NCBI RefSeq assembly: GCF_963576615.1
Contig: NC_088717.1
Coordinates: 35,853,802-35,917,801, forward strand
DNA length: 64,000 nucleotides
Reading direction: 5' to 3'
DNA from: Watersipora subatra
Taxonomy: Eukaryota > Bryozoa > Gymnolaemata > Cheilostomatida > Watersiporidae
The notes under the pieces are model-generated. The model ran no database searches, was not told the DNA's origin, and worked only from the letters and a program-made list of their open reading frames with translations. Made by a program: the position numbers and the translations under genes. Shown here piece by piece: positions 6,781 to 34,154 of this stretch (position 1 is its first letter; each line of letters begins with the position of its first letter).

Positions 6781-6910
6781 CGAGTTGCCTAACATTTACA
6801 GTTCCAATTTGCAACCAGGGAATACAGTTTAAAAGTTAGAATGGTAAATGTTGTATACAGTATGTTATAATATGTAAAAATAAATTTTCTGTCCAAAGAC
6901 TTCTTTATTA

Positions 6911-7385: not shown

Positions 7386-8199
7386 ACTAGAAATTCCAGT
7401 GTCATACAGCCCACGACCAAAGAGATGGCCAGAGATATTGGCAAAAAAATAAAGGGTACTGATGGTTGAGAAATGCAATATTAGCAATCAAATGGCTCTG
7501 CAGTGCAATAGGATAACTGCAATGGTAGCTGTAATGTACTGGGTGTGGGTGTTATTATATACAACAATAAGCAATAATGAATGAAAAAGATGTTTATATT
7601 TTCCCCCTGCAATAGGAGAAATGCAATATTGGCCAATATTAGAAGTAAAATGCACTGATATTCTTAGAATAATCAATTTTATTAATATAGTAATAATAGA
7701 AAAACGATACACAATTTTGTTTACAATTCAAAACGTAATAGGTAGCAATATCGAGAAGTTGTGGTATTTATATAGGTTTTTAGAAAATTTATTTAAAAAG
7801 TGTTTGGTCATGACAAACAACAACAATGAAAGGAAAATATTACACGTTTATATCTCTCCCTTGCAATAGGAGAAATGCAATTTTGACCAATATTATAAGT
7901 AAAATGCACTGATATTATTAAAATAACCAATATTGTTAATATAGTAATACAGCAATAATAGAAAACCTATGAGCGTTCATGCGTCTCGAAGATTTCTGCA
8001 AACTGCAGCAAAATAAAAGCTGTTATAAAAGTGTTATAAAGCTGTAGGCCTAATTTACTGTAATGTATGTAATTCAACAACAATAAAGAAATATGTTTAT
8101 TATAACTCTGAAATGCAAAATTAGAAGTAAAATGGCAAGCTACTGTGTACTATACACAGTTTGAAAGTTGGTTGCGTTTAATGTAGAATGGTTTTGATC
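7386..8199. repeat. Right arm of ~813-bp inverted repeat
   Basis: Inverted copy of 5128-5940. It lies outside the right end (7330) of the element that contains the left arm, so it is either a second inserted copy in opposite orientation or the product of a rearrangement. Confidence 0.85.
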
Positions 8200-8200
8200 A

Positions 8201-8905
8201 GAGCCGTATAGTTTCACAGAGTCCCGCGACTAACAGAAGCGTATACGGGATCTCGCTCGATTCCAAACAAACAGGCCACGCCTACTATTTTTATATAAGA
8301 TATAATGGAGAGGTCGCAACATTAATCAACAAAAACTACTCCCATTAGCAGTCACTTTGAAATTGATTGTTGTATCATGAACCATTTGAAAGAAAACAAA
8401 ATTTCCTACAAAAAGGTGCTAATAACGTTTTTGTAAAAACGTAAAGTAAATGCAAAAAAGAGCGGTATTGAGAGCGAGGTATGAATATTCCATTATATAT
8501 CAGTATGTCGATCGGGTTTGTTTGGAATCAGACGTTTTTGTTTCCGGTTTTGGTGGCGAGACTTTTTAAAGCTATATAACTCTGACAGTGCAGAGCTGTA
8601 TAACTTCACAGAGTTTTGCTGCTAACGGATGCGCATATCGAAGCTCGCACGGCTCCAAGCAAACAAGCCGCGCCCACTATTGTTTTATATAAATTATAAT
8701 GGAGATGCCGCAACACTAACCAACAAAAATTACTCCCATTGGCAGTCCCTTTGAAATTGATTATTGTATCATACACCATTTGAAAAAGGACAAAATTCTA
8801 TACAAGAAACGACCAATGATTTTTTGTAATAAAGTAAAGTAAATGCAAAAGAGTGAGATGTTGAGAGCGAGGTAAGAATATTCCATTAGAGATCAGTATG
8901 TGAGT
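8201..8905. repeat. Two diverged direct copies of a ~310-bp unit
   Basis: Copy 1 (about 8201-8510) and copy 2 (about 8592-8905) share an ordered series of words: CTGTATA/CCGTATA, CTTCACAGAGT, CGCC..ACTATT, TATAATGGAGA, ACTCCCATT, GAAATTGATT and GAATATTCCATTA. The offset is ~391 bp. Mismatches are frequent, so the duplication is old. Confidence 0.7.
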
Positions 8906-9969: not shown

Positions 9970-12697
9970 ACGTTTTAGTGTTTAACTTTTCCTCAATATG
10001 GAGCTTATACTCTCATCTCAGGATTTTAGCACTTATTTGGTTCTGTTTTAGTGTTTAAATCCTTCTCTATATGGCGCTTATACTCATCAGGATCTTGGGA
10101 CATATTTGGTACTTTTCTGGTTGGCAGAGTCTTTCGCTATGTGCAGTTTATGTTTTTTAGGATTTTAGCACTTATTTGGTTCAGTTTTAGTGTTTAAATC
10201 CTTTTCCAAATGGAGATTATACTCATCAGGATCTTGGGACATATTTGGTACTTTTCTAGTTGTAAAGTCCTTGGCTATGTGCAGTTAATATTTATAAGGA
10301 TTTTAGCACTTATTTGGTTCAGTTTTAGTGTTTAAATCCTTTTCCATATGGAGATTATAATCATCAGGATCTTGGGACATATTTGGTACTTTTCTGGTTG
10401 TAAAGTCCTTGGCTATGTGCAGTTAATATTTATAAGGATTTTAGCACATATTTGGTTCAGTTGTAGTGTTTAAATCCTTTTCCATATGGAGATTATAATC
10501 ATCAGGATCTTGGGACATATTTGGTACCTTTCTGGTTGTAAAGTCCTTGGCTGTGTGCAGTTAATATTTATAAGGATTTTAGCACTTATTTGGTTCTGTT
10601 TTAGTGTTTAAATCCTTTTCCATATGGAGATTATAATCATCAGGATCTTGGGACATATTTGGTACTTTTCTGGTTGTATGGTCTTTGGCTGTGTGCAGTT
10701 AATATTTATAAGGATTTTAGCACTTATTTGGTTCAGTTGTAGTGTTTAAATCCTTTTCCATATGGAGATTATAATCATCAGGATCTTGGGACATATTTGG
10801 TACTTTTCTGGTTGTAAAGTCCTTGGCTATGTGCAATTAATATTTATAAGGATTTTAGCACTTATTTGGTTCAGTTTTAGCGTTTAAATCCTTTTTCATA
10901 TGGAGATTATAATCATCAGGATCTTGGGACATATTTGGTACTTTTCTGGTTGTATGGTCTTTGGCTGTGTGCAGTTAATATTTATAATGATTTTAACACT
11001 TATTTGGTTCAGTTTTAGTGTTTAAATCCTTCTCTATATGGCGCTTATACTCATCAGGATCTTGGGACATATTTGGTACTTTTCTGGTTGTAAAGTCCTT
11101 GGCTATGTGCAATTAATATTTATAAGGATTTTAGCACTTATTTGGTTCAGTTTTAGTGTTTAAATCCTTTTTCATATGGAGATTATAATCATCAGGATCT
11201 TGGGACATATTTGGTACTTTTCTGGTTGTATGGTCTTTGGCTGTGTGCAGTTAATATTTATAATGATTTTAACACTTATTTGGTTCAGTTTTAGTGTTTA
11301 AATCCTTCTCTATATGGCGCTTATACTCATCAGGATCTTGGGACATATTTGGTACTTTTCTGGTTGTAAAGTCCTTTGCTATGTGCAATTAATATTTATA
11401 AGGATTTTAGCACTTATTTGGTTCAGTTTTAGTGTTTAAATCCTTCTCTATATGGCGCTTATACTCATCAGGATCTTGGGACATATTTGGTACTTTTCTG
11501 GTTGTAAAGTCCTTGGCTATGTGCAATTAATATTTATAAGGATTTTAGCACTTATTTGGTTCAGTTTTAGTGTTTAAATCCTTTTCCATATGGAGATTAT
11601 AATCATCAGGATCTTGGGACATATTTGGTACTTTTCTGGTTGTATGGTCTTTGGCTGTGTGCAGTTAATATTTATAAGGATTTTAACACTTATTTGGTTC
11701 AGTTTTAGTGTTTTAATCCTTCTCTATATGGCGCTTATACTCATCAGGATCTTGGGACATATTTGGTACTTTTCTGGTTGTAAAGACATTGGCTATGTGC
11801 AATTAATATTTATAAGGATTTTAGCACTTATTTGGTTCAGTTTTAGTGTTTAAATCCTTTTCCATATGGAGATTATAATCATCAGGATCTTGGGACATAT
11901 TTGGTACTTTTCTGGTTGTATGGTCTTTGGCTGTGTGCAGTTAATATTTATAAGGATTTTAACACTTATTTGGTTCAGTTTTAGTGTTTTAATCCTTCTC
12001 TATATGGCGCTTATACTCATCAGGATCTTGGGAAATATTTGGTACTTTTCTGGTTGTAAAGTCCTTTGCTATGTGCAATTAATATTTATAAGGATTTTAG
12101 CACTTATTTGGTTCAGTTTTAGTGTTTAAATCCTTCTCTATATGGCGCTTATACTCATCAGGATCTTGGGACATATTTGGTACTTTTCTGGTTGTAAAGT
12201 CCTTGGCTATGTGCAATTAATATTTATAAGGATTTTAGCACTTATTTGGTTCAGTTTTAGTGTTTAAATCCTTTTTCATATGGAGATTATAATCATCAGG
12301 ATCTTGGGACATATTTGGTACTTTTCTGGTTGTATGGTCTTTGGCTGTGTGCAGTTAATATTTATAATGATTTTAACACTTATTTGGTTCAGTTTTAGTG
12401 TTTAAATCCTTTTCCATATGGAGATTATAATCATCAGGATCTTGGGACATATTTGGTACTTTTCTGGTTGTAAAGACCTTGGCTATGTGCAGTTAATATT
12501 TATAAGGATTTTAGCACTTAGTTGGTTCAGTTTTAGTGTTTAAATCCTTTTCCATATGGAGATTATAATCATCAGGATCTTGGGACATATTTGGTACTTT
12601 TCTGGTTGTAAAGACATTGGCTATGTGCAGTTAATATTTATAAGGATTTTAGCACTTATTTGGTTCAGTTTTAGTGTTTAAATCCTTTTCCATATGT
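9970..12697. repeat. 138-bp satellite array, ~19.5 units, with 276-bp higher-order dimers
   Basis: The word GTGTTTAAAT recurs at 10051, 10190, 10328, 10466 and so on to 12674, giving 19 steps averaging 138 bp. Two unit types are seen: one reads TCTATATGGCGCTTATACTC, the other TCCATATGGAGATTATAATC. A second variable block alternates between AAAGTCCTTGGCTATGTGCAA and TATGGTCTTTGGCTGTGTGCAG. From about 10.8 to 12.4 kb the alternation gives a 276-bp higher-order unit whose copies are nearly identical. The array stops 49 bases before the first ATG of the Ulp1-like gene, so it lies in that gene's promoter, 5' leader or a leader intron. Open frames inside it are shadows of the period. Confidence 0.95.
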
Positions 12698-12745: not shown

Positions 12746-15700
12746 ATGGCTACTGAAAATAGGTACCGCAAGAGATTGGCTGCCTCTTCTGCATCTATTG
12801 GCACCCAGGTATGTTAACAGTATATTGACCTCACTGTTAATCTTCTTTGTTTATTACAAATAAATATGAATATAGCTGGAAGCATTGCTAGTTTGTGATG
12901 TATATTTGTAGTCACGAGGTTATTATATTAAAAGACTAATATTTTGACCAACACCCTGCTGGTCAAAATATAGGTCATTTGATATAACATTTTTCACAGT
13001 AACATAATCGAATAAATGGAAATCTTACAAGTATGTATTTCTTTTTTTTCATGGTAGAACAAGCAGTCAAAGAAAGAAAAACGGACATTGAAAGCTGTTT
13101 TAGAGCGGGTATGTATGGAAATGCAATTATCTTGACCTTCTTTCTAGGACTATGTTTCTCACAGGCCGGAACATGCCCAGTTAGGAGCATAAACCAGAAT
13201 GCTATATAGACATGTTTCCACCATTCCGGAATGGTCTCCGGAATATTCGCCCCAATTTTTTATTCTGCGTAAAAAGTGAAGATAGTTTTCGGAGGCTACG
13301 GTATGTGCATTGGAAACAGCATAGTAACGGTCTAACATTTGGTCTTAACATGGTTCAAGTGGAAAAATTGAAGTTAATAAAGTGATTAGTGTAAGTTTTT
13401 TGTAACTATGTGGTTTTCCAATGACGATTTTCACTTTGGAGCACACCACTTGCAGCAATGATCTCCTAGAAAATGTTTCATATTCATTGAAAACTGCACA
13501 GGTAATAATAATAATAGAAAAGTTCATTCTGCGCACCATTAATCATCAATCATTAATCATATTACAAAAATATGGCAAGCCACATAACGTCTTTTTGCTG
13601 TATAAAATGGCAAAATGAAATTATATATTCAGCTTTTCCATGGGCAGCAGAAGATTAGAACTGTCAGTGGTATTTCACAGTACTTTGCCCTGGTGGGCTA
13701 TTCGTTACACCATTGGTGCCATCTAATGGAAACCTATTATACATGTATTTTTGTTTCAGATTTTATAGGCCCCTATTAGGGCTGCAACAATTCACCAAAT
13801 TTGAAAATGATTCAATCTGATTCGATAAAGAGAAAATTTTATTGATTCGATTCAAAAACCAATTTGATTTTATAACAAAAATTGCATTATGTATGTCATG
13901 TGTGGCAGTTTGTTGTAGATAACATAAAATATATAGCCCATTTTTCAATAACTATACAAAAACAGTTGTGTTATTGAGGTTTGTTAATTCGATTCGGTTC
14001 TCTATTTCTAGTGGACAAATATCGAATTGAATCGTATCGAATCAGAGCTGTTTGTCAAAAAATCGTTGCAGGCCTAGCCCTTATAGGCTACGCCATTATG
14101 ATTTTAACGATAACTATGTATGATAAATTTGCTGTACAATTTAGTAACAGGTAATATTTTTCATATGCATGTAAATGTTATTGTAACTGTTCATTTCTCC
14201 CCTGTAGAGAGTTGAAAAGTAAAATACATTTCTTGATCTTATTGCTATTATAGTTTCAGGTGCTAGGGAGGAACTTGCCTTGTCTAGCTATTGTCAGAAT
14301 AGGCGGCCAAATTATGATGTCTGGTAAGAGTTTATCTATTAGATATTAGATTATCTTCTGAAGATTATTCAAGGCTATTTTCTTATTAAACTACGGTTAC
14401 TCTTTGAGAAGCAGTTTTGGTACCTCAAGCATTTTTGTTGCTTTATATCTGCCTAACCACTTAGAAAGAATACTGACACAAATACAACATTGTAGCTAAG
14501 TGGTTAGGCAGATACATAGCAACAAAAATGCTTTTCTTTTTATTTCATAAAACGTTCGCCTCTTGTTGAGTAATAATAACCTAAGTCTGCCATGCTTGCA
14601 GTCTGCCATGCTTGCTTGCTATTAGCAGCTTAAAAAATATAGTTTGTATGAAACATCATTTGGAAAAAATATTAAACCATTTTAAAATAATTGATTTATT
14701 CACAAATCAAGCTGATGGTGTTTTACGTCCAAATCAACTCACCAAATCAATCAAATCGTGATTTGATTTGAAAATAATCCAATTACATTTATTTTGGGCC
14801 AATTCTGGCAATTGGTAATGGGTTTTAGAAAGGGTCTGGCTCTCTGGCTCCGGAGAGCCAGACCCTGGCTAAATGGGTTTGCCACTGAAGTTAAAAGTTT
14901 GGCATTCAATCCTTGGTATTGTCATATTTTCTTTCTCATGGCTCTCAATTTTGTTGTGAAAAAATATCTTTTTAAATTTCGCATGATTTTCTTGTCAATT
15001 AAATTTTTCATTATCAGCAATCATTTTATTTTTTTCTAGGAATTAATCCGGAAGCCAATCATATCTAGTTTACATTGTGTTTGGCCAATTACGAGTTCTT
15101 CAAAATATCACTCTAATCTTTGTATAAGCTAACTGTTTTGTACTGTTTTACAGGCAGTGAGGAGTTTCTCACACAAAGTGATATGCTGATGCAGGTTCTG
15201 TCAAAACCTCCATCAGCATATCAGGTACATCTGTCAGAACCTGCATCAGCTGTTTTAACCTGTGGTGATGATGGAGCGGGCAGAGCCGAGCAGCATCCAC
15301 ACATATATTCTGATCATGAGATTGATGTTTTATCCCTGGACACAAAGAGGCGTTTGGTCAGCCAGGCAGTAAATCCAAGTATGGCCACATTGTTATATTT
15401 TACAATCCATTATGTCTCTTTTCTATATATTGAATATAATTATTATTTTATTTTCTAATTATTTTATAACAATGGATACATTACGATCAGTACACACACG
15501 TATATAATTATGCAAGGTGATCAATTTGTAAAGCTTCGGCCTTTCATTAAGATGGTAGTAATTTTTTTCTGTTCACTTTACAGAGAAAACTAAGAGCATC
15601 TGGGGAATGGAGGAGTGTAGGCCATTTTGGTGGCCTGCTATCATTCCCTTTGTTCAACCTAAAGAGAAGATAGGTAAACAAATTCTATTACCTGAAATAA

Positions 15701-18700
15701 TGTTTTTAGTTAAAAAGTTACTAGCCTTTTAAGATTTTCTGAAAGAATATTGTGTTTCAAACAAATACTTTTCTTATTTCTTAGCTTACAATGGTCAACA
15801 AATGATATTTTCAACAAATAATGCATTTGAATTGACATGTTTCTAGATGGTAAATATGTGCATAATGCAGAAACTCTGGCCATGGTGCTCAAAGCTTACT
15901 TCACTTACAGAAAGGTTCGTATCAAATGGATAACAAGTTTAATTAGAAGCATTTTTTTTGTATTTATACATGTATATATACTCTATGCTAATATTTTGAC
16001 TAGTGAGATACTACTAGTCATCAAGAGAATCCAAATGATGATGATGATGACTAGTACAGTTACAGTCAATAGTCGAAATATTAGTATATAATATAGGACC
16101 TTTGCAAAGGTTTTCTATGTTCCATAACGAATTACAAAATCAGCGAGTTACAAGACTTTCATATATTTAGTCTAACTAAGGTGAAATCCGACAATTTACC
16201 TCCACATGACATTTGACATTAAAGGAAACAAGTTGTATATATATAAATATATATTTGATATGTATATACTAATAATATATTTTACTTGATACTAATAAAA
16301 TATATTATTAGTACAGTATATAGCTTGCCCCAGTATTATTAATATTGTTGAGCACTCTAATTTTAGTAATACAAATCCATAGTTATTTATAGTTAATTTT
16401 ATATATCTAGATATAAGTAATTCCTAATAGGCCTACATGTGATATATAATGTTGTAGTCTGAATACAGATACATGCATGCAGGGGACAATTAATGGTATT
16501 GTTTTGTCTGTCATATTTATAGAAGTTAAAAACTCCTAAAGTTGTTTTGGATGAGCCAATTGAGGTTATTGCTGATACTGACCAGGAGGATCTAATGGTA
16601 CGACACTTTTGTAATTAATGCCATATTTTCTTGTTTTTGTTCTTTGTTGACAGGTGGTGGGCACTGTGCATTGATTTTCAGGCTTCAGACTTTGGGACAC
16701 TTGTACACTTGATGTCTTCAGCTGTATTTGATTCCTGTAACCTGTTAATTTTGATGGCGTGTGTCTAATTAGCACACTTTGGTGATAATTGGCAGCTTTA
16801 TTGGAATGTGTGTTGCAACTGAAAGTTTTGATATTTGAAACTATGTCATGCTACGTCAATCAATCCGAAATTTAGTCAAGTTTCGTTGCGATTATTTTTA
16901 TTTAACTACAAGAATTATGGAAACAGTTCTAGTTAACCAATCACCAAGAATAATACGAAAATGAAATTGGACCAAAGAGTTACGATGTTTTGTCTTATAC
17001 TCCGAATAGAATTGTATGGTAAGATGTACTACTTATGCTTTTGTCTGTTTTAAGCCCACAACATCTAGTACTAGTTATGTAAGGTATGTATGCATGCATT
17101 ACCTAAGTTGCTATTGCTTGTACTGAGTATCATTTCGGAGTTTAGAATATTTGAATGTTAACATTCTCATTATGCTACTTCATATAGTTGCTTTACATTT
17201 TTATTGATGTTTACTGTTCTTGTTACTGTCCTTGCACGACTTATGATACAATCCACTAGTTTAGTGCCATTATCCCGATGACCTCGATATCCTTTAGTGC
17301 ATGATCATAGAGATCCTTAGGTATAGCTTATCATTCTATGGTCGCATTGGACGTACACTACTTTTCTAATCCAATAATATCAGGTTTCCCAGAAGCTTCT
17401 CCATTCCTAGCAAGTCACTGGCTTTGCTGGACACTGATGAGTGGCTTGACAGTGACCTCATGGATCTGACATCAAGGTAAGACTGAATAAACAAAGCTTA
17501 TTGCTATCCTAAATTGCAACAATGACAGTCAGTATCTTATGACATTAGAGTTTCTATTTCGGTAAAATGACGAAAACTATCTTGAATGATTTACTAAATT
17601 ATTATAGAGAATGTAGGAATCTCTGTGACACATAGGTGATGTTCGCTGTTATTTGCAATCAAAGTTTTGTGTTTGTATTTACTTGTTGTATATGACTTTA
17701 CGATGACAAAATAACCTCTTTTTTCACTTTGGTAAATTATCATAAATAGCTGTGTGACTTGTGAGTATGGGTTGTAGTCTGCTGCAAGGTCAAAGGAGTT
17801 GCCAGTGGAAATTTCTATCGCCCTATATATATAACTATGAGAAGTAAGTAATCAAACCAAAGTTGACATTGTAGTAACCTTTGTGGCTATCTTATTGTAG
17901 TGGTGTGATGACGTTGTTTTCTCCTTTTGTAGTCAATGCAATTATATGGAAGGAATACAGCAGTATGGTGTATAATCATTTACCATATGTGCTACTAGAC
18001 TGGTACATCATTATTAGCCATGGGTCAGGATTTGGTCCTGTTCCTGAATTTCGGTTTTAGTCTCTCGGGTATGGGTGAGGTCGAGTATGAGGCTTTAATA
18101 GTCCTAAATACACAATAAAATAAACCTATATGTTAGTATCTTGACAATGTTTCCTCAGACGCATAGGATAGCTGTATGTTTGTGTTTGCAGCAGTGATGC
18201 AATTCCAGATCTGACCTGTGAAGGAGTAGGAGCAGTGATAATCTGCAATCCAGGGTAAAGATGAATATACTAAAAAATTTGTTTATCGTTTTTCATTAAC
18301 TAACTTCTGATCTGCAAAAATAATTTTAAATTCAGGTGCGTCCATCAGGCTTGTGCCACGTATAGTAAACTAAACAAAACTCCGCTTGGCGCAGGACTGC
18401 TAGTCTGCTAGTCCGTACCTAGACCACTGCCGCATTGTGCCAAGTGCATTCCTCTTGTAGCATTTTGGTCAGGCTTAGACACTCACACTCCAGTGTGAGC
18501 TATGCTACTGTGAGCCGTTATAGTGATTGCTTCTTGCTTATAAAAGTGAAACAGTCACTATTTAGTATTTACAGATTGACCTATTTGTTTGTTTTAAGTT
18601 ATGGCTTTAGTGTATTATTTTGCTGTAAACTAGGTAAACATGATTTAAAGCAATTACATGCTACGATTTTAGGTTTCACTGGTTTGTTGCTGTTCTCATG

Positions 18701-20181
18701 GAAGGCACAGTAGTCATTTTCGATAGCTTAAATCCTAAATGGGAGATGTCTACCAAACTAATGAGGTGAGAGTTTAAATGTTTGTTTGTGAACTGTTACT
18801 GCAGTTATTATATATTGAAGTATTTGTGTATGTCTAGTGGCTCCAAATTATGTATGGCTAGTCTTCTTTGTTTTGAAAATGCCTCAATTCGGCAGGAGCA
18901 TCTTTTTAACTTTTCTCATCTAGTCTGCCATGATTTGAGATTGGTGGCATTCCTGTCATCTATTGCCGTCTTATTCTGTCAGTGTCTTCCTCTTTCAGGC
19001 TACACTTCGCCTTTTCTCTAAACTGTATCACAACATTTTTGCCTGGGTATCCTTCTATTTTCCTCCTGCACCCTCATCTCCTCTACCGCTCTAATATTTT
19101 CTTTTTCATCTCTTCTGCGACAAGTTCATGCCATTAGTATTCGTCTCCGATCATTGAACTTTTTGCTTTCTATTTTTGGAACCGATAACTGCAATGAAAT
19201 TGAGAACTTTTTAGGATAGTATAAACACATTGTTCAAAGTGTGCCGTCTCTTTCTATTTTGTCTCTTTCTCTATTTATCAAATGTATATTTTATAATTAT
19301 TTCAGTATATACACTAAACTTGGCTATGAAGCAAGGCCTTCACTGATCAATAAGAAGGTAATAATTAGTTATTTTTATATTATACTAGCTGTATGAATAA
19401 CTCAAGTTAGCACTCTACAAATACATTTTACAAGTTGATAAATGAAAAATGCAATGTTTCTAATGCATTAATATTAACTGAGTGTTTTTTGGTTGTCTCG
19501 CTTAATGTTATCATTACTATGCTTGCCTTAATTTTCTACCGTATATCATTCACAATATACCTTTAGACAATAGAATAATATTTTGTGTCCATCCCTCAAC
19601 ATATCACTTTTTCCTATTCAATCTATCAAGTGGAAAATATTGCATTTATTACTTTCAGGTACCAACACAGCCAAACGGGTTTGACTGTGGGGTGTATGCC
19701 ATGGCATTTAGTAAATGGATCTCCCATGTAAGTAAGATGAGCCTGTCTTGACAACATGTTATGTTACCAAATCCTGTATTATGATGAACATGTTTAATCT
19801 AATTTATTTTGTAACATTTGCTGCTGCTCTTACATGTACTTCTTCCGAATATTGATTACATTATTAAGTATTATTAATATTTATGTTGCCCGCGCGACAT
19901 GGAATCCAGAGCTTTAGAGTATTATTGGTTTGAAGCGACAATTGGAGACATCCTTGTGTGGCATTTCGCGAGCCAAGAATGGTAAGCTAGATGACTTACC
20001 ACCATTAATTTAATAGTTCATTCTATTGCAGCCACAGGCACTAATTATAATGCATATGTATTTGTAGAGGGCCCCAAAAGATGTGTTATGCACAAAAGAA
20101 ATAGCTGCCAGCAGCTTAAACGTAATTTTATCCAGGAAATGCTGGCTTCATTGGCTGCAATCTCGTGCAGTTATAGAGTAG
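12746..20181 (+). CDS. Ulp1/C48-type SUMO protease-like gene, 15 exons, intact 402-codon frame
   Basis: Proposed exons: 12746-12808, 13058-13108, 13442-13501, 14260-14323, 15154-15378, 15584-15673, 15847-15914, 16523-16597, 17055-17083, 17384-17476, 18192-18254, 18673-18765, 19306-19357, 19659-19727, 20068-20181. Each intron is GT-AG, phases agree throughout, and the total of 1,209 nt is exactly 403 codons including the TAG. The C-terminal third carries the C48 cysteine-protease order: a DEWLDSDLMDL entry motif, GFHWFVAV (catalytic His), VIFDSLNP (Asp), and TQPNGFDCGVY (Gln and nucleophile Cys). Family members cleave SUMO/ubiquitin-like conjugates. Upstream, exon 6 encodes RPFWWPAIIPF, an unidentified conserved-looking segment. 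The start follows TTTTTTTGACAG, a good acceptor, so a non-coding leader exon is possible. Exon 3 is the least certain. It faces a convergent KDZ transposase gene and is probably its element partner. Confidence 0.8.
13777..14076. mobile_element. 300-bp hAT-type MITE in Ulp1-like gene intron 3
   Basis: Ends are TAGGGCTGCAAC (left) and TAGGCCTGCAAC (right, reverse complement). Flanking octamers gcccctat (13769-13776) and gcccttat (14077-14084) match at 7 of 8 bases. The interior is rich in GATTCGAT-like words near both ends, a typical subterminal repeat. Confidence 0.75.
14429..14531. mobile_element. 103-bp hairpin MITE in Ulp1-like gene intron
   Basis: An inverted repeat of about 38 bp: GCATTTTTGTTGC plus CTGCCTAACCACTTAG on the left, CTAAGTGGTTAGGCAG plus GCAACAAAAATGC on the right, with a loop of about 30 bases. 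No target duplication is obvious. Confidence 0.65.
14832..14865. repeat. Perfect 13-bp hairpin in intron
   Basis: GGGTCTGGCTCTC and GAGAGCCAGACCC flank the 8-base loop TGGCTCCG. It is much more GC-rich than the intron around it and is probably the core of a degraded foldback element. Confidence 0.6.
16267..16313. repeat. AT-rich hairpin in intron
   Basis: TACTAATAATATATTTTA and its reverse complement TAAAATATATTATTAGTA lie about 11 bases apart within AT-rich intron sequence. Confidence 0.55.
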
Positions 20182-22263
20182 GTTGGACGTGGAACTGAAC
20201 TCTGGACTGTAAACACATCTTACTCATTAGGTTGATTTTTAATATAGTTTTTATATGGTTTTATATCGTGAGATCTTTAGCTATTATACATTACATAGTA
20301 CAAGGACTATATGTACATATTTTTGGTATTAGTTTTATATTTTTAAGTGGTAAAATACTCATGCCAATTCAGTCAATTTAAAATATTTTTTTGTTAGTGC
20401 TGTCTTCTAATCGAAGATTATTCTTTGAAGGGATTAAAATCATGTTTGTAATATGATATACTAGTTTCGTAATGGTTATTCATTTCTTTCTCTAATTTTA
20501 TACATGCTGTTAACAGTTCAGTCAGTTGGCTAAATGTTCAATTTGATTAGCTGATTATAATATAACTCATTTGGGCATAAAAACATTGTGGATTTTATCA
20601 TATTTACTTACACATCGCATGTTGAAGATTAGCTTTATTAATATCAGAGCTGCATTTGACTGCAAATTTCCCGAAACAGGTACAAGTCTATAAGGAGTGT
20701 TAGTATTTTGAGAACCGAGTAGGCATACATGACTTCTTTTCAGATCAAAGCTGCCAAGAGTAGCTGTTACATTTATTGTGACAAGAAAGCAAGTGTATTA
20801 GCCCAAGCAGTTAAATACGAGAACTCATTGATTAGCCTGTTAGGCAACTGTACCAGCTTTCTCTGCTTAACAATTGCAATGCTGCTAAGAGCACGAATAG
20901 GAAGTGATAAAAAGCTGGACACGAAGCAAGGCACTGTTTTATTTAATAAATTTTTATTTCGTAAAATTAATCAGGCTTAACTGCTTACAGTACAGATTAT
21001 ATATATATTATAATATATACATGTATATATTATAACATACATGTATATATACAGATTATAATCGTCTTGATGTCAACGGAAAATAATGTGTAAGTGTTAA
21101 TGTAGATCAACATCATTATGATATATTAATTAAATACATACATGGAGAAATTTGGCCTATCGTGAAAAGCTTTGTTTCTTGGGTAAGAAACAAAGCTTCT
21201 CAGGATAAGTTAGTGAAATATTATATCCATGAGTAAAGTCGATAGGACAATATTGACTTTCTCATACCAACCATTAATACACATCAAGAAAACTTGGGGA
21301 GAGCTCAGAAGCTGATGATCCTGTATTAACTAGCTAAAGGTTCAACTGATAAATAATTCATTATTCAACACAATAACAAACTAAACAAATTATCTTATAC
21401 TTCTCTGGAATGGTAAGACCAAGAAACTAGATCATGAATTTACTTCTTTTATTAAAGTCATACAAGTAGACATGATACATAAAAACAAACTCACTGGGAA
21501 TTTTTCACTAGGCTTGTACCATCGACATACATTAGTATAAAGCACAGTGTAAATAGAACACAAAATTAAGGTTTCATTTTATGCATTTACTGCTTCCGAT
21601 GTGTATTTTTCTGCATTTAAAATGTACAGCACACTGATATGCACCGTTTAAAGGAAGACTGTTACTTGATAACAACTGGATGTTGGGTGCACGTACGGCA
21701 TAGTAGTACATGTGTATTGCTCGCAAATATCTGCTGTGTGATCATTGTGCTGTACAATTCAATCATAAAAATATATCAAAAGGAAGAGAGAATTTGATTA
21801 AATATGATTGGCCATGATTTGTCATGATTTGTAACAGAAAAGTTTAAAAAATTCTGCGAATCATATTTAACCAATTTCACAATCTCTTCTGTTAACATCA
21901 TTTTTTAACCAGATTCACGCTTTCTTCTTCAATCACAACGTTGCAGTAAATTTATTTTACCTAAGATATAACTAGCTTACTGTAGTATATATCTCCATGT
22001 AATAAATGTCTTTGCAAAAAATATTAGCATAGGTGAGGGCCAGTGAGAAATATAGAACTGAATTTGGTTAACAAATGATTTGTAAAAAGTAAAGCTTGAA
22101 ACTTTGCTTATTCTAAATGTTACATGTATATTATATTCAAATAGTGTATTTTAAGCAGCTGACTGCAGGCAGTATACATGTGCATTGTTTTTATCTTAGT
22201 ATAAGAGTGTGGAAATAGGTAGGCTATATTATAATTATATGGTAGCTCTAGCTGATACCAATG

Positions 22264-22408
22264 GCAGTATGCATGCCACACTATTATATGCAGTATGCAT
22301 GCCACACTATTGTATGCAGTATGCATACCACACTATTATATGCAGTATGCATACCACACTATTATATGCAGTATGCATGCCACACTATTATATGCAGTAT
22401 ACATGCCA
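22264..22408. repeat. 26-bp minisatellite, ~5.6 units
   Basis: The unit is GCAGTATGCATGCCACACTA plus TTATAT, with GCATGC/GCATAC variation between copies. Open frames through it in several frames are due to the repeat. Confidence 0.9.
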
Positions 22409-22630
22409 ATGGCACTCTCATGTGTATAGAAAGCAAACATGTTTAGGAGGCAAATGTGGTTACAGCTCATTATTGTACAATATCCTTTCTTTTTTATGCG
22501 AATTTTCACTTTAGCTGAGACGCTTAATAAAAAAGTCACACCCCTTGTAAATTTGTGACTCGGTAGATGCTTTATCATGATAAATCATTGAATTTGGACC
22601 AATTTATGATTAAAATGTTCAACATTTCAA

Positions 22631-22861
22631 CCCATTAGCTCCTAGAAATTTTCTTAAAGATCAAACATACCTCTGCCTTTTTATTTATAAAACATGATTC
22701 ACTGTAAGTGGGACATAAATCTAAAAATGTATCTTGTAGAATAGAGATTTGCCTACAAACTGAGCTAGCTTTCAAAATTGTAACTCAAATATTGTGAGAG
22801 CTACAAAGCTTGGAAAATTGCCTATGTCAGGGTGGCTGAGGGCGTTTTAGGAGCTATCGGG
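22631..22861. mobile_element. piggyBac-type MITE candidate (TTAA flank)
   Basis: Left end CCCATTAGCTCCTAG and right end (reverse complement) CCCGATAGCTCCTAAAA. The right flank is TTAA (22862-22865) and the left is TCAA, a one-base decay. TTAA duplications with CCC termini are typical of piggyBac-type elements. Confidence 0.55.
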
Positions 22862-23816
22862 TTAATGAAAAAGGATGTGTAAATTGCCAAATAAAATACC
22901 AATAAAATAAAGAGTTTGTTATATTAATCCGAGTAATTTGAAAGGCACTCATAGTAACAAGTTGACATGTGAAAGTGTTTGTTTTTAACACAAGTAATAA
23001 AGATTAAGCGATTATTTCAAATTAATGTTGAATTAATCGAGTTAATCTCATAACTAACTCCAAGGTTAAGTTAATGGTAAGTACTTGGCGAACCTGTCCA
23101 GAAAACAATATCATTTATTGTTTATTTGTATGATTTTAGAGTATCAGAAGTGTATAATAATATATGAATAACTGATTAGTATTATTAGCTCACCGTGAAG
23201 ATTAATCAGATTAATCTAAAAGCAAAGTGACAAACAGTACTAATTTTGTATCATATAGCTATTTATATTATAGTAGTATGATACAAATAAAAGCAGTAAA
23301 GCTGAAGTGGGATATTATAGGGTGAACACACATGAAAATGCAACATAAGCATTTGTGACTACCAATGCAAAGCAAAGCATATACTACTACATAATGAAAA
23401 GTGTATGCTTTGTTTGTGACAAAAATATGAAGACCTCATTTCCACAATTCAACAAGGGATACAAAAAGTAAGCTTAAAGATATGGGAAAAAAATGGAAGT
23501 AGGTTTGATTCCACTACTTCCGCCATAAATATGAATTTACAAAAAAATTGACAGACGCTCCATATAAAAGCTTAATACTACATGTACAACACTTAAGCTT
23601 TCATCAACAGCAATACATAAAATATATGTAGGTATCTCAATAAACCATATCATTAAAAATTATCTACCAACAGTCAGTCACCTCTCCGCAACTCCTTCCC
23701 ACCATGAAAGTAGCTGGGTAATTTTTTATTTGATACTATTCTTTGAACAGACTGCAGAAAGTTTCTCATAAGCATTGCAACAGTCATTGGTTTCACACCA
23801 CCAGAATCTGGAGTTA

Positions 23817-26800
23817 TCACAAACTTTTAAGCCTTCTTATAAGACTTTCATCAGCATTGCAAGGATCTCTCATATTAGTTATAGCAATAGCATTGTGAAA
23901 TGACAGAAAGACTCTGAGATGTTCAAAGAAATTCTCTTCATGCATGTAGCTGAGTGAACTTTTAAGTTTTTTTAGTGTAGCATTGCGTTGCTCTGCAACC
24001 TGAGTGTTGAGGTCCTTGTACTGAATGTAGCATCCTGAGTTGTATCCTGTGGTACATCCTGTACAAAAAGTAATCATATCCTCATGTAACAGTTATGAAT
24101 ATATATATTATTTATATTACCTACACCTGATTGTTATTACTGTTAAATAAACGTAGCCTACTACTTACAGCACCGCTAACATGCAACGAATAATGTAATC
24201 TTTCTCTTTGGCCAAAAAATTTTGCAATTTACTTGGGAATACACTTCGTTTGAAACAGAAAGTGGGCGGTCAATAAGTATAATTTCGCAATGCAAAACTA
24301 GATATAACTGATCTCCCTACGCAAAAATCAAAAGGCTTCCAGATACCACTGAATTTAATCAACGAGTAAAAGCTGCATTTATTGCAATAACATTGAGAGC
24401 ATTACGAAAGGGAATATATGTGTAGGCAAAATGAATACTCTGAGGATTGAACTCGACTTTCCACTTGGAGACAAAGCCAATACCCATTGCACCACAGTAG
24501 AGACTCTACTTTCCAATAATATAATATCCAACAAGAAGTCTAGGTTCCAGGCTGGTTTTCTGTGCAGTTTAACAAGCCATTACTCAAGCGATGCAACATC
24601 GAGATGAACTCTTATCCAGTAATGGAATTACAACTGAAACTTTGAGGCCATCTTCGAAAAAAGGATTGATGACACAGTTTATTCCCAAATAATGATTCCT
24701 GATACTTAATTTCTGATAATTTTCGGCTGCCGATACTGCTGCAGAGACCCCTTCCGTCTCTGCTAAAAAATAATCAATTATCAAGGGGAGAGGTTCATGT
24801 ACTAGCCCAAGGGTCTGGCTAGTTCTGAGATCACTGAGGCTAAAGTTTTATGAAATAAAAATAAAGATGTAAGACTGACAAAAACAATAGTCTTCCAGAT
24901 ATAATCTGGAACCATAATTAATTATTCAGTGACATGTTTTAAATCTTACAGAATGAGAATACTAACCTGTGTGATTACCCCAATGAAACCCATCCACTAA
25001 AAATTTTGTCTTTGCAAAGAACCCAGGATCTCTGTTTATGGCATATTTATGCAAGTTGCAGGCATTGTCATAGACTACTACCTCAGGAGCTGAAATAAAT
25101 GATAAGTATATATGCTTAGATGTAAAATCATTTGTTGTTTCAAATCATCAATAAACAAATGAAATGCAAAATTGAAGAATTGACCAATATGGTTTAATGA
25201 TTCATACCATGCTATAATAGTCCCTGCATACTAGTCAAGTGTGATTTTGTTTACACACTTTTCAAGATTGACAGTGTGATAATATTGTTAACCTTACTAG
25301 TTTGATAAGGCCTTCACATGGCACACTTATGTCTTTCAGGGCAACACCATTGCCTAAGAACCACATGTAGAACTAATATAACCTACCTGCTGTGAATCTA
25401 GTTCGAATAGCGGTAAATGGGGTGTTGGGCGACTCGTGATTATCCATGATTTCAAAGCCATAGCACACAGGTAAAATTTAATGACACAAAATTAATGGTC
25501 ACAAAGTACGGTTTATTTAAACAAAAAAGACAATATTTTGCCGAAAGTAGAGTATATTGTTTCCTCTATGAAAATAAATCACTCATCTCACAGTTACCAA
25601 TATTACACCAAAGTCTAGAGGAGATTTTTTAGCTATCAGCTGATATGCAAAATACTAAGATACTAAACATATCATGAACTTCATTCACCCTCTCTGGTTC
25701 ACCATTTGAGTAGAAATCTGAAGATGATGAGACAGCAGAGTACAAAGTAGCCTGTCTTGACAAACTGTTGTTTTTGCGGAGTTGTTCCCCCGTCGAGCAA
25801 GCAAGCAACACAACTGTTATGTTGCTCGCCCGGTCGATGGGGGAACAACTCCGCAAAAACAACAGTTTGTCAAGACAGGCTAAGTGCAAAGAAGCAAACA
25901 AATTACAATTTTTATCTTGCGCATAATAATATGTATTGGTAAATCATGGCCTGAACATAGTTGGATACCATACCGTGTGGACAGTGTACAAGAAACACCC
26001 CAGGAAGTAGATTCTTCTGCTGCTTTCCAATCTTGGAGCAGATTGACTCCCTCTTCCTATCTAAAGCATAGGTTCCCCTTACTGTTAACTTGGGTAAGTC
26101 GGGAAAACTTCCTTCACGATCTTTGTGCTGAGGAGGTAAGACTTCTAGGTCATGAGGCGGATAATTCTGCATATACTGTAATCTTTGTATGATGATATCT
26201 GTAATGGGTCTAATTAGCTTAAACTCCTTGACGGTAGCTTCTTTCAAGAGATCATACAGCAGTGGGCTAAGGAATCTGATAGCTGAAAGACTCTTGGAAT
26301 CTAGAAATAACAAACAAATCATCTGAACATTGCGAGAAACACTAAATGGAGGTCAAATAATCAAGTTTAAGCGAAGACACAAAATTAACAAAAAAAATTA
26401 CCCAAGTAGACATTAGTGTGAACTAAATCATGAACAATAATAATAGTAAATAATAGTAATTAATTTTATTTGTAAAGCGCTTAATAAAGCAGTAGGCCTA
26501 TGCTTTTTTAAGTGTGACACGTGACAAGCGTGAGATGTGACATCAACTAAATGGCTAGGGTTTAGGGCAGCAGCCATGACTCTGCTGAGCATTGAACCGC
26601 AAACCTTACAATTTATAATACGATATACTAGTGCTGAACCATGACAATTGAATCGCAAAACAGAGATTGACAGCGCAAAATCAACATTGGGTGGCTGTCC
26701 TGTTTTCTTGATTCTAATCATTCAGTCATACCTCTAAGTTCAAAGAATGTTTCCAAGGATGTATCCAGTTCTTCTGCTGCACATTGTATGCCCACGGCTG

Positions 26801-29800
26801 GAGAGTCTTTACACAGTTCTTTTAAGAAAATTCGCCAATGATCATAAAGTCTTTCTTTGGCCTCTAAGAAGATGGCTACGTGAATGAGTGGTGGAAAGTG
26901 GGCTACAGATAGTCTTTTTAGCTGCAAGAAATTTTTAGTTTATGGCACTTTCCATTTTTTCTATCTGATAGTTTTAAAGATAGAACATGCTTTGGTGAGT
27001 AATAATTAAAATTTAAATTTCCATATTGTGCTAGAGTATTGTTAAGTTTACGGATCTAATCATAATGGGTAATGCCCCGGTTACACAAGTGTCATTTGGT
27101 ATATGATAATATGCTCGTGTAACCAAATAAGTGGGCAAGCTGCAGTGAAGCTACAAATGGTTATCTTAATCAGACATATTTACCTCCTGTACATTTTCAG
27201 CATCAAAGTCCTTTTTCTTTATTACAGACATTATTGCTGCCCGAGCCACCTTACTTGGAATTACATGTGTGCTTGCAGAACTGTAGTAAAACCAGAGTCT
27301 AACAGATAAGAAATGAATATAGACTTTTTTACAACTACCACCCATTCTAATCTATGTGAAAGAAACCGATGCTTGGTCTTTATCAAGGAAAAGCTACTCT
27401 AATTTAATTAGCCTTACCCGCAGCCATCTAAAAGTTCTCCTTCCATTTCTGTCCTCTCCACAGGAATTCGGTGCAGCTTTTTAAATCCAAGAGTGAGGCC
27501 ATCACAAATTATTATGTTGGGAGAAGTAGTAAAAAGAGGACAGGAAAAGTACTTGTTTGATGGCAAAAGACGAATGAAGGAGTCCCAAGACATTCTCAGC
27601 TGATGATACTTTGGAGATACTGATTGTCCCAATTCCCAGCAACTCCATGTGGCAAATTTATAAAAGCCATGTAATGTCATTCTAAAAACGTAGTCATAAA
27701 AACTGCCTAACATAATGTATGTATCAGTGATGTAGAGGTGAGTATTCTCAGTTAGTCAGTGACTAACCAAGAGACTAACTGAGTTAAAATTTACCATTGG
27801 TATGTATTCAACATAATTCGTGTTTTAATGTCTTCATAATTCTACCCTTTAAAATCATAAGAAAAGCTTAGAAATTGAAATATATGAAAAAAAGAGAACG
27901 CACCTGGAATTAAACACATACACAAAGGATTCAACTTACCCTGCTGTAATAAACAGTTTTAGATAGTGACGTAGCAGCTTATGGGTGATAACAAAATCTC
28001 CCATATTCAGAACTCCTACATCTCCACCATCAGGTTGAACCAGATTGTGGCACTTTGGACACACAAAAGTTTGCACTGTAAACCAATGTACTATGTAATG
28101 TAATGTTTACAATCAAGGATCTAACTATAAAACTAGTACCAAATATGTACCTATAATTGGAATGATCCTATGTTTTAAGGATTATTAACTGTAAGTGCTG
28201 GATTGGTGGTTCAAGTAGTTGGTTTATGATTTGCGAATTTAGAGGACTGTATACGAGGTGTAGATTTAATGCTGAGAATTAGACTGGTTTGTTTTAGCTG
28301 AAAACTTAAAAACAGATTATATTTATTAAAAATTCAAACTTTCAATAGAAAAGGCAATAAAACATAAAATATATGAAGGCTAATCAAATCAATGGCTGAT
28401 GCTAATTGCGCAAGTCTAAAAATATAAAAAGTAATACAAGAGCAGAGTGATACCTAGAGCGTGAGTAAAATATGGAATTCGAATTGTTTCTGATCTACAC
28501 AGGCTCATATACGTTTGCCTAATCAGTCAGGCAACCGTCAAATCCGTAGATCACAGACGATTGGGCGCTGCAAAACTTCCTAGGCAGTAAGCGAGTAAGT
28601 ACAAAGAAGCAGATAACATTTATGCTGTGCAGTAAAATAGCAGGTGCTAGGAAGGTGGAATAACAAATCGGTGTGTCAGGCTACCAAGAGTCCAGAAAGC
28701 TGTTTCTTAATCATATCAAAAATGGTTAAATAAAAGGGTATGAGTGGCTCCGTAAGAGGTGTATAATACTCTTAGGACAGGATGCATAAATGCTAATATA
28801 GAAATTGAATAACATGAGTTCCTTTGTCTCATAATGACAGGTATTCATGGGCTGTGTAACTGAAGATTACAAATGCTGGGCGCTTCACATCTCCCCAGCC
28901 AACGAGTCTCTAGCTCTACATATAGCTTAGAGACCCATTCTGTCCCAGAATAGTAAAGAATAAAAAAGGTATATATGTATATATAGACAGGTAGAGTATA
29001 ATAATTTGTGGTACACATTCCGTGTGGTGATGTCAGTGTAATCTGGCTTCCATAGTCGGATTGAAAATAATTGTATAAGAATCATTGTTCGTTCTTGGTA
29101 GTTGAGGTTTAAAGTGGTAGTATCTGGACTATTGGTAGTTTCTGGACTATTGGTAATTGACACGTCGGATTTGTCCTTCCTTTACAATAATGGTACTGTG
29201 TCCAGACGGATCTACAATAATAGTCAAGCAGCAGAAAGTATGCAACTAATTAATATAATGTTATAATTGACCTTACAGAAGTAAACCTTATAATCCATAT
29301 TTTTGCACTACCTCTGTATCAAAAATATTTTATTACTACTTCAAAACGGGGTAGGCTATCAAATAGGAATTATAAAGCTTTTACAAATCAATTCTAAATA
29401 AAGGGGTTGTCTACTCGACTCAATGAAATATACTCGACTTTATGCATGTCTAAAACTAGTACCAAATATGTACCTATAATCCTTGTAATATGTAATGTGT
29501 ATAGCCAAGGGTCTAACCATAGAGTTATCTCCCCCTAGAGTGATAACTATAGAGCGTTTCCGGTGCCAACAAGGAGCGTTTCGGCCACGCCCCCTTTTTG
29601 TGCTAGTCAGTCGTAGTGATTGACTAGATCAATAACATCAGCCATGAGAATGGTTAAACAAGGATCATGAATTTCCAGTTAAGATAGTAATTAATGCTCA
29701 TATTAAAGAAATGATGATTATAGTTTATTACTATAATATATGCTTATTATTTAAAGCAATTCAATACCTACCAGGGATCGCTAAACATATTATGGAAATG

Positions 29801-32800
29801 TTTACTTTTCCATATCCATTTCCATAAACAAATATTTCCATAATTTTAGGGAAATGGATATGAAAATTTTATTTTAGAAATATGGAAATAGAAATAATAT
29901 GGAAATGAATTATGGAAATGTTATGGAATTGGAAATAATATAGAAATGAATTATGGAAATGTTATGGAAATGGAATTATTATGGGAATTAATAATGCAAC
30001 TTTTTTTTGAAAGTGGAAATAATATGGAAATGAATTGTGGAAATGTTATGGAAATGAAAATAATATAGAAATGAATGATGGAAATGGAAATAATATGGAA
30101 ATGAATTATGGAAATTTTATGGAAATAGAAATAATATGGAAATGAATTATATAATTTTAATTAATTAATTAAATTAATTAATTTTAAGTAATGGCTAAAT
30201 ATAATCTGTTTAGCTATGATTACAATAAATTATTTAATAAATAAAGTAATAAAAAAGTCTATTTTATTTTTAAATAATTATAATTTAGAATAATTTATTT
30301 TTATTTAACATATAACAACATTGACAATAACACATTGACACAATAACTCTAACTTTCAAACTTTTTGCTTGCTTACATCAAGCAAAGATGTCCACTAACT
30401 AGTGGACATCTTTGCTTCAAGCTAGTCTATGTGTTTGATTGATATGTATTGAAATCTAATATTACATGCAAGGGCCGTTTGTGAACTGTGGTGTCAATGA
30501 ATCACTCTATCACCATACAATGTCAATACTTTCAGTTGATGGCAGTCGATTAGCTTTCCATCACACCAATGTAATACAACCCCAGTATGACTATCTATCT
30601 TATCTATGAGCAACCAATGATATACAGCCCCCATGTGTGGGGGCTGTATATTATTGGAGTAACTGATTGCATTAACTCACTTACTTAACACTATCTATTC
30701 AGTGCCTTTGCAAGGCATCTAGGTATTGAATTGCTTTAAATAAAAAGCATATATAAGAGTAATAAACTTTTAATCATCATTTCTTTTATATGAGCAATAA
30801 TTACTATCCTAACTGTGGAAATTCATGATCATTCTCATGGCTGATGTTATTGTTCTGGCAAACACTACGACTGACTAGCACAAAAAAGGGGCGTGGCCTA
30901 AACGCTCCTTGTTGGCACCGGAAACGCTCGTGTTGTTGAAGGCGCAGTTATCACTCTAGGGGAGATAACTCTATGGATTTAACTATAAAACTAGTACCTA
31001 TTATGTATGCTAAATTTTTAACTGCTAAATCAACACTAATCCGCCAACATAAATACAAATAAAAATAGACGAAGGCCTACACACTCACCAGTCACATTAT
31101 AAGCTTCTAGTAAATCAAAGCATACTACGGTAGTCTTGAGAAAGTCTTCAGACATAAAGCCACAATTGCATGGAGAAGGTGGTATTTCTCTTAAGTTTGT
31201 TGAAGATCTAAAATGAGTGAAAAAATATCATTTTCACATAGAAGAATAATTCCAAGTTGTATCCCCTAAAGCTAAAAGGCATACTATGTAAAACTTAATC
31301 AGAGATGAAAAGTAATTGATAAATGCAAATATTTCCTGTATTAGTTTTATGTAACACTGGGTAGTAATAAAACAAACAAACCCAGTTAAGGTGAATGTGA
31401 GAGGTTTGGTTGATATTGCCATACGGTCCCATCTATATTTCAACTGGGTTTCCAGTGCCAATATCTCTTTCATCATCAACAATCCAGGTGACAGATCAAC
31501 AGATGTTAAAGCTCTTTTAACAGCATGCAGTGCAGGACAGCTAGACGTCAAGTTGCAACAAGAACATTTTAGAGAATTCTGAGCTGATACAGCTACTGTT
31601 GAAAACTTGTTCTTGAGCAGAACCAGGACCACACTGTCAGTGATTGAAAAGATCTACAATTATTGATATAGCTAGTAAATAATAATACACTAACACACCT
31701 AGCTATACGTTTTAGAGGGTAATGAAATCTACGCAGTACCAAGGTAATAAAATTGAAAAATTTAAATTGCTAAAAATAAAGCAAATGGAAATTAAGTGGA
31801 AGTTAATATGGAAATTAATATTTCTTTAATAGTGTTAAGAAATTAAATAAAAAAAAGAGCAAGCAAATAGGTTAGAACTAGTAGATTGAATAGCGTACCA
31901 TGAAAAACTAAGAAACTCATAATAATTATAATACCTTAACACCGGAGTCATCATTTTGTGGGTAAGCATGGTCATTTTCATCACTATTAACTGCACACCA
32001 TTCAGCTGCAAAAAAGGTTGCAAATATATAGTGTGAAGTTAGTTAGTATTAAGCACCAAAATACACTAAAATGCCCGCAAAAAGACACTATTTTTGTCTA
32101 TTCACATTGTCAATTTACTAAGCCAATGTGAGTGACAAAAAACACAACCAATTTTCTGTTATTGGCACTTGAGCCAGCAAAATGCCCACCAGCCAAAAAT
32201 TAAATTCTGAAGTTGGCTATTATCTTGCAGCATACAGACTTGCTTGCCTAACATCTATCAATAGCAAAACAACCATAGAAAAGCAAATTAATATAAAACC
32301 GAACATGTTCAATGCTAATCAGTGCAAGCTTCTTTCAGAAATACCTCCAACTCCCTTAGAGTATGCGTCAGAGCAGCTAATACTGAATATTAGATAAAAT
32401 TACAAGATACGTACATATGTTGCCAATAAGCTGAGAGTCGCTAACATACTCTAGATGGCAACATATTTTCTGGTCTTCAGGCTGACTAGCATAAGCTGGA
32501 TTGCGGATTGCTATTTCAACAGCACTGTCACACGAACAAAATAACAGTCCATTGACTTTGGTAATAGCCCTGTAGCAATTCTACAACATATCACATCACC
32601 ACCTTCAAGTCGATCTTTCATGTTGAATGAAGTTACAACAAATTTCTCATTTAATTAGTTGGTGATTTACTACTGTTAATTTGAGAATTCACAGTTTGAC
32701 CTATAGCCTACAATAAAATCCAAATGCATCAACAATGAAAATAAAATTATATTTCTGTATACTAATCACATAAATTATTCGTGTTCCTTATCCAACTTAT

Positions 32801-33123
32801 GATAGAACTCACTGTAAGCCTTTTGCTTTTGTCATCTAATTCTGGTAGTGCTAACACTCTGGACTCCACCAAGACTATATTTTCACTGTTATTTAGCAGT
32901 TTAAAATATAAAGTCTTTATAGGAATCTCAAAAGTCTCTCTAAAACAAAACATAATATGAGATTAACACAGTAAAGTAATGTGTATTTCAATGCATAAGA
33001 GTAAACAGATCTTTAAAACATAATACAATACACACATAATGCAACAGACATACTATGAGGTAGCGGCAACTTAGCACATCTTAGATAACAGTAGGCTAAA
33101 ATAACATGACCAACAGCAATAAG

Positions 33124-33165
<42 letters not shown>

Positions 33166-33174
33166 GGATGCTTG

Positions 33175-33222
<48 letters not shown>

Positions 33223-34154
33223 CAAGCATCCGTAACCCTAAAGCCCAAAAACAACCTTTGTTGCCGACCTAGATCTATATTAGATACAGTGATTTTGCCA
33301 TATTGCTCAAGCCTTTTGCAAAAGCAATTATTCTCTAAGTAAAGTAAGTAAGTATATATCAAGTCATCTGATGTATGTTCTCAAATATCTTTAATGATAG
33401 TAGGTAGCAATGGGCTATGTAACGGAAACTATAGATTCGTATTCTATAACACAAACTTCTCCATGATTAAACCTGATTAAACATACATTAACTTGGGAGT
33501 TGATGTTGAAGACTCCTCATCCTCATGATGAATAACCCCATCATGTTCATCATGGACTTCACCATGTTCATTCACACTTCTAGCTTTGTCCCCAATGCCT
33601 GTAACTACAGTGATGTTTATGTTATTTTGTAGGCCACTTCCAACAATGAATATCAACTAACAATATAATATATATATAAAAATAAAAGTTTAAGCATAAT
33701 CTGGTTATCAGTAGGGGGAAGTAGGTTATCAGTAGTTATCAGTAGGTTAACATGTAGAGCTCCTTGTTACAACTTTATAAATATTACGATCAAACAACGC
33801 TAGCACAATAGCATCTTTAGAATACCAGTATGCTATATATACCTGCACTATCGGACTGTAATTCTTTAGACTCTTTTACTCTTTTAAACGATGATCCTGG
33901 TGATCCTGTCTTATTATCCCGTGGTTAAGGACAGTGACGAAATGTAATAGTACCATCTGTTGATATTACTTGTCGCAAGGAACGGCGCTTTGATCTCACC
34001 TACAAGGCTTGTCAGTTTATAATCATTTAGGATAAAAAATCAAAAGCACGTTAACATTAACATTAACAAAGAAACATCATTCCCTTCCATATAGAAATTT
34101 TATTAACACCGTTATTTTACTTACCAGCTTGTTGTAATCAGACTCTGACATCAT
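23817..34154 (-). CDS. KDZ (Zisupton-type) transposase, 16 exons, probably inactivated
   Basis: Proposed exons, 5' to 3': 34154-34125, 33999-33843, 33598-33493, 32939-32813, 32580-32415, 32005-31935, 31653-31382, 31207-31089, 28075-27940, 27681-27418, 27280-27184, 26921-26732, 26300-25974, 25468-25387, 25089-24967, 24058-23817. Phase agrees at every junction except exon 13/14, total ~835 codons. The N-terminal half has Cys clusters (LFCSCDSAV, KCSCCNLTSSC, SPCNCGF, CPKCHNLVQPDGG) as in KDZ proteins. The core has IIICDGLTLGF, VHCPHG..CYGFEIMDNHESP, VYDNACNLHKYAINRDPGFF, GFHWGNHTGC and LNTQVAEQ, the family's order of catalytic Asp, Asp and Glu regions. KDZ enzymes mobilise their own DNA element. 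Defects: in-frame TAA at 33925-33927 in exon 2, and no AG acceptor before exon 14. Convergent with a Ulp1-like gene. Confidence 0.85.
25748..25882. mobile_element. 135-bp hairpin MITE in KDZ intron 13, 9-bp duplication
   Basis: The terminal inverted repeats TAGCCTGTCTTGACAAACTG... are about 44 bp and essentially perfect, closing on a short loop region. Flanks are agtacaaag (25739-25747) and agtgcaaag (25883-25891), 8 of 9 identical. It lies in the intron whose downstream acceptor is missing. Confidence 0.85.
26430..26655 (-). mobile_element. tRNA-derived SINE candidate in KDZ intron 12
   Basis: Read on the minus strand, a TGGTTCAGCACTAG stretch (about 26641-26628) resembles a pol III A box, and GCGGTTCAATGCTC (about 26600-26587) resembles a B box ~35 bases on. 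The element ends in AAGCGCTTTACAAATAAAAT followed by an ATT-rich tail. The order A box, B box, body, AT-rich tail is that of a tRNA-derived SINE. No clear flanking duplication was found. Confidence 0.5.
29780..30140. repeat. Degenerate ATGGAAAT repeat
   Basis: Repeated words ATTATGGAAATG, ATAATATGGAAATGAATT and GTTATGGAAATGG make up most of this stretch inside the TIR element, with irregular spacing. Confidence 0.8.
30379..30417. repeat. Perfect hairpin inside TIR element
   Basis: AAGCAAAGATGTCCACTA and its reverse complement are separated by about 3 bases. Confidence 0.7.
30616..30645. repeat. Perfect 13-bp GC-core hairpin inside TIR element
   Basis: TATACAGCCCCCA and TGGGGGCTGTATA are separated by TGTG. 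Confidence 0.7.
33126..33236. repeat. (TA)n tracts flanking a 15-bp inverted repeat
   Basis: Two pure TA tracts (about 33126-33164 and 33179-33219) surround CGGATGCTTGCTGTA; the reverse complement TACAGCAAGCATCCG follows the second tract. This could fold into one long cruciform. It lies in KDZ intron 3. Long ORFs of alternating Y and I across it are artefacts. Confidence 0.9.

Follow-up and report, generated by a model that had tools for sequence, protein, structure and literature searches.

The window analysed here is a 64,000-nucleotide (nt) stretch of the Watersipora subatra genome (contig NC_088717.1, positions 35,853,802 to 35,917,801), within which positions 12746-34154 hold a convergent pair of genes, a Ulp1/C48 protease on the plus strand (12746-20181) and a KDZ-type transposase on the minus strand (34154-23817). 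The reading that we prefer, although we regard it as very nearly an even call, is that the locus is one partly decayed copy of a giant DNA transposon of the KDZ class, rich in introns, in which a CxC4-KDZ DDE transposase is accompanied by an accessory C48 protease of Ulp1/SENP type that carries an NRF1-type segment.

The original prediction, made from the sequence itself, had described a Ulp1/C48 protease gene and a KDZ transposase gene facing each other at a distance of about 3.6 kb. Both identities were right, as shown by Peptidase_C48 and CxC4 matches and by relatives with KDZ domains, and the layout is borne out by frame, splice and homology evidence, a spacer of 3,635 nt separating the stop codons. 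The exon counts have had to be revised. The 15 exons and 14 introns proposed for the protease were not recovered; the present model has 14 exons and 13 introns, all 13 of them GT-AG and continuous in phase. For the KDZ gene 16 exons had been given and the model now has 17, the addition being a conserved 84-nt exon (25470-25387) that was probably absent from the earlier model; 15 of its 16 introns are GT-AG. The claimed continuity of phase holds for the protease, although over 13 introns, and in the KDZ gene one phase problem is removed by the use of the acceptor 'gttgtag|AATTGC' at 32580; in the present model phases are continuous at 16 of 16 junctions. Each spliced coding sequence contains a single, terminal stop in the modelled frame, whereas the other two frames of the same exons contain 27 and 36 in the protease gene and 57 and 74 in the KDZ gene. 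The GC content of the coding sequences (0.440 for the protease and 0.403 for KDZ) is higher than that of the respective gene spans (0.342 and 0.343), and AATAAA/ATTAAA hexamers are present 3' of both genes, the first at 20433 and 20945 on the plus strand and at 23730 on the minus strand.

The protease matches Peptidase_C48 of Pfam (E-value 8e-8, 32.8 bits against a cut-off of 20.7) over exons 10-14, and a complete set of residues that we take to be catalytic from the Ulp1 family is present: H276 (18677), D291 (18722), Q326 (19668) and C332 (19686). This H-D-Q-C set is common to the SENP/Ulp1 SUMO proteases, and the nearest solved protease in a search of the PDB was yeast Ulp1 (1euv; E-value 0.11). 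In a word-based search of a 5.8-billion-protein set no relative of residues 128-382 was found at E ≤ 10 among 872 candidates, and none of 2613 candidates for the whole protease reached E ≤ 1e-3. The predicted activity is cleavage of SUMO or a related modifier. A 138-bp tandem satellite (10020-12696; 19.4 copies, 93% match, two diverged 69-bp halves per unit) stops 50 nt short of the protease ATG.

The KDZ gene matches CxC4 (E-value 1.3e-9, 38.4 bits against a cut-off of 26.9), and its three DDE catalytic acids, D448, D716 and E772, align with those of relatives. Twelve protein relatives were found with E-values from 4e-89 to 5e-6, five of which are listed with the KDZ domain PF18758; in several relatives both KDZ and CxC4 domains occur. 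In a Pfam rescan of five relatives (cut-off 26.6 bits) P0001 (32.0) and P0009 (28.0) scored above the cut-off and P0010 (26.1) just short of it, while P0002 and P0003 gave no PF18758 match. The transposase protein itself, in an 823-residue version, had no Pfam KDZ match at E ≤ 1, the relatives themselves lying near or below the cut-off. A scallop relative has a DDE-transposase-like fold in its predicted structure. When relatives were compared with the DNA by tblastn, exons 10, 11 and 14-17 were matched and exons 1-9, 12 and 13 had no match at E ≤ 1e-3; exons 1-5 are supported by frame and splice sites. Intron 9 contains a nested 1.4-kb element (29552-30929) whose long inverted repeats have arms of 71 bp (96%), and an end sequence like that of this element (ATAGAGTTATCTCCCC...) was seen by eye at 4208-4237 and 7302-7331.

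The exon added to the KDZ model, exon 15, is matched by 11 of the 12 relatives in tblastn and encodes a CYGFE..ESP..PF block, part of which is modelled as a core strand in P0004 (residues 421-426). At its 3' splice site AC stands in place of AG, and no upstream acceptor can serve the exon because an in-frame TAA precedes its GTG codon by four codons. Skipping of exon 15 would keep the frame (802 against 830 codons, stop included) with the loss of 28 core residues, among them the conserved strand. Because a conserved exon is left without an AG acceptor, this KDZ copy is probably non-functional and, barring an assembly error or an unusual splice site, probably unable to make the full transposase. 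The intron preceding exon 15 also contains a foldback (25748-25882) whose 67-bp arms are separated by a loop of 1 nt.

A segment of the protease containing RPFWWP..IPF, which had previously been called unidentified, resembles part of the DNA-binding domain of NRF1. Human NRF1 (8k3d) was matched with an E-value of 0.005 when the whole protease was the query and 0.0005 when an 84-residue piece was used; for this piece a second NRF1 sequence (8k4l) followed at 0.0015, and these two were the only ones below 0.5 in a PDB set of 177,635 sequences. The Pfam profile Nrf1_DNA-bind was matched at 0.034 and at 0.0052 (16.9 bits for the latter), without reaching the cut-off of 23.5 bits, and the match spans only profile positions 149-174 of 213. 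A hand count over the 28 aligned residues gives 11 identities, and the counterpart in NRF1 is linker2 (residues 218-249) of the DNA-binding domain. Linker2 of NRF1 enters the major groove; base contacts are made by N242 and R244, and K221 extends into the minor groove (PMC10810270). Counting along the alignment places N242 at Q159, R244 at K161 and K221 at K138. K221 and the Trp-Trp-Pro core are among the positions that the two proteins have in common. The protease was also considered as an orthologue or member of the NRF1 family, and this was rejected since the resemblance is to linker2 only and the NRF1 dimerisation domain was not matched in Pfam or PDB searches. The linker2-like segment is shared with the NRF1, Erect wing and P3A2 factors but is joined here to a protease domain. 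We think it unlikely that the resemblance is fortuitous, with the protease a plain SENP-like enzyme whose tail is unrelated to NRF1, an explanation that would be compatible with any reading of the locus. The sub-threshold Pfam score and a match of only 26-28 residues would suit such an explanation, while the restriction of the best PDB matches to two NRF1 sequences, the retention of the Trp-Trp-Pro core and K221, and the placing of Q159 and K161 at published DNA-contact positions argue against it. The segment is probably an NRF1-type DNA-binding module and, given this resemblance, the best reading of the protease is that of a DNA-directed deSUMOylase; action of such an enzyme on chromatin also becomes more plausible.

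Membership of both genes in a single element is plausible by analogy with published precedents, and is suggested in addition by their convergent layout and similar intron-rich build. It is also possible, if somewhat doubtful, that they are chance neighbours, the protease being a host gene or part of another transposon family beside which, in a region rich in repeats, a KDZ element landed (or the other way round). Several observations favour chance and weigh against a single transposon. Two piggyBac-type transposase fragments lie nearby at 43590-43889 and 49552-49995 (Pfam DDE_Tnp_1_7, minus strand), and an uninterrupted frame at 51222-53120 (632 codons; 631 residues at 51222-53117), in which a Spin-doc zinc finger passes the Pfam cut-off while matches to DUF4371 and to the hAT dimerisation domain fall short of it, is probably a hAT-like gene. 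A 3.1-kb palindromic element (5125-8201), whose 816-bp arms show 99% complementarity, is found upstream of the protease gene. KDZ transposons are bounded by 7-8 bp target duplications, with inverted repeats in Zisupton, and no inverted repeats above chance were found bracketing the gene pair (best 15, against 15-17 in five shuffles), although such repeats are absent from Kyakuja elements also (PMC12730594). Neither termini nor target duplications were identified here, a search for the latter presupposing known ends. The presence of Ulp1/C48 domains in Ginger1, Mutator, Crypton and CACTA elements is compatible with an origin of the protease in another family, and the probable splice defect of the KDZ gene is a further point against the single transposon. 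The convergent arrangement and similar build, together with the finding that neither protein has another transposase domain at E ≤ 1 in Pfam, speak against chance neighbours, although not strongly. It is very unlikely that the pair has been domesticated, what was once a KDZ transposase being retained together with a DNA-binding SUMO protease as immobile host genes. Open frames over 14 and 17 exons and GT-AG boundaries in 28 of 29 introns would be expected of such genes, but a conserved 84-nt KDZ exon without an AG acceptor is contrary to purifying selection on the KDZ gene.

If the two genes do form a single transposon, the transposase would cut and paste the element, acting at its ends through D448, D716 and E772. 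The NRF1-like segment would bring the protease to DNA and hold it there, and the protease would strip SUMO or a related modifier from the transposase, silencing factors or repair factors at the DNA, easing expression or mobility of the element. We infer both these substrates and the benefit to transposition. The more specific proposal that a giant animal KDZ transposon encodes a sequence-directed deSUMOylase, an NRF1-type module fused to a Ulp1 protease, which is directed to the element itself or to host promoters and lifts SUMO-dependent silencing or adjusts repair during transposition, is on the unlikely side. Ulp1 and OTU proteases occur in several unrelated transposon groups, and their role in transposition has been raised as a question (PMC2836005). 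A protease with a DNA-binding segment of its own next to a KDZ transposase would supply a concrete model, a transposon-encoded, DNA-directed enzyme that locally removes SUMO-type marks, and KDZ would join the transposon groups that took up a C48 protease.

Coordinates of the gene models and their features are collected in the table. Elsewhere in the window, frames at 43042-44237 and 50045-50422 adjoin the piggyBac-type fragments and may belong to them. A frame at 62917-63228 (NNVEGWHRHMQANISAYHPNFWHFLLKL) had no Pfam match at E ≤ 1; we presume a likeness to FLYWCH/MULE-type transposon proteins, which Pfam did not confirm.

Table. Features of the convergent gene pair (window positions; minus-strand exons in order of transcription).
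Feature	Position	Strand	Remarks
Ulp1/C48 protease gene	12746..20181	+	14 exons, 382 residues, stop included in last exon
Protease exons 1-7	12746-12808, 13058-13108, 14260-14323, 15154-15378, 15584-15673, 15847-15914, 16523-16597	+	
Protease exons 8-14	17055-17083, 17384-17476, 18192-18254, 18673-18765, 19306-19357, 19659-19727, 20068-20181 (stop)	+	
NRF1-like putative DNA-binding segment, 'WG.E.C.P.WWP..IP'	15584..15673 (exon 5)	+	Protein residues 136-163, all in exon 5
C48 domain match, exons 10-14	18192..20181	+	Protein residues 268-356
Spacer between the two stop codons	20182..23816	.	3,635 nt
KDZ-type transposase gene	23817..34154	-	17 exons, 829 residues
KDZ exons 1-6	34154-34125, 33999-33954, 33905-33843, 33598-33487, 32939-32813, 32580-32415	-	
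KDZ exons 7-12	32005-31935, 31653-31382, 31207-31089, 28075-27940, 27702-27418, 27280-27184	-	
KDZ exons 13-17	26921-26732, 26300-25974, 25470-25387, 25089-24967, 24058-23817	-	
KDZ exons 10-11	27418..28075	-	Exon 10 closes the CxC4 cysteine cluster; exon 11 carries D448 (27503), the first catalytic aspartate
KDZ exon 15 (AVCYGFEIM..RTRFTA)	25387..25470	-	84 nt; 3' splice site AC instead of AG
KDZ exons 16-17	23817..25089	-	Second aspartate D716 (25069), glutamate E772 (23993)

Each component of the locus is of a known kind, and it is at most the combination that is new. The locus resembles the KDZ (Kyakuja-Dileera-Zisupton) transposons of animals, algae and fungi in the CxC4 cluster of the transposase and in the KDZ-type DDE core of the relatives of that protein, and Zisupton is described as having a multi-exon transposase, as found here (PMC9297572). 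In Ectocarpus KDZ elements of up to 30.3 kb have been described, and extra genes are found in many of the giant transposon families of that genome, with the transposase gene often predicted to be pseudogenised (PMC12477816); in large size and possession of accessory genes such elements would be akin to the present locus. Some fungal KDZ elements carry TET/JBP dioxygenases (PMC12730594), whereas an accessory C48 protease with an NRF1-like segment is not mentioned in those portions of the KDZ literature that were examined. None of the literature matches listed combined a KDZ transposase and a C48 protease, although the founding Zisupton/KDZ papers may contain an earlier mention. Outside the KDZ class, C48 domains accompany the transposases or recombinases of several transposon groups, namely in Ginger1 and Mutator (PMC2836005), in CryptonF and CryptonS, where CryptonF-2_PS has a C48 and some CryptonS carry an additional C48 protein (PMC3212892), and in CACTA elements (PMC8978399). 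An accessory role for the protease would fit these precedents and that of the giant transposons. The enzymes concerned are of families other than KDZ and the arrangements differ, the Ulp1 of Ginger1 being a C-terminal domain of the transposase itself and that of some CryptonS, as proposed here, an additional protein.
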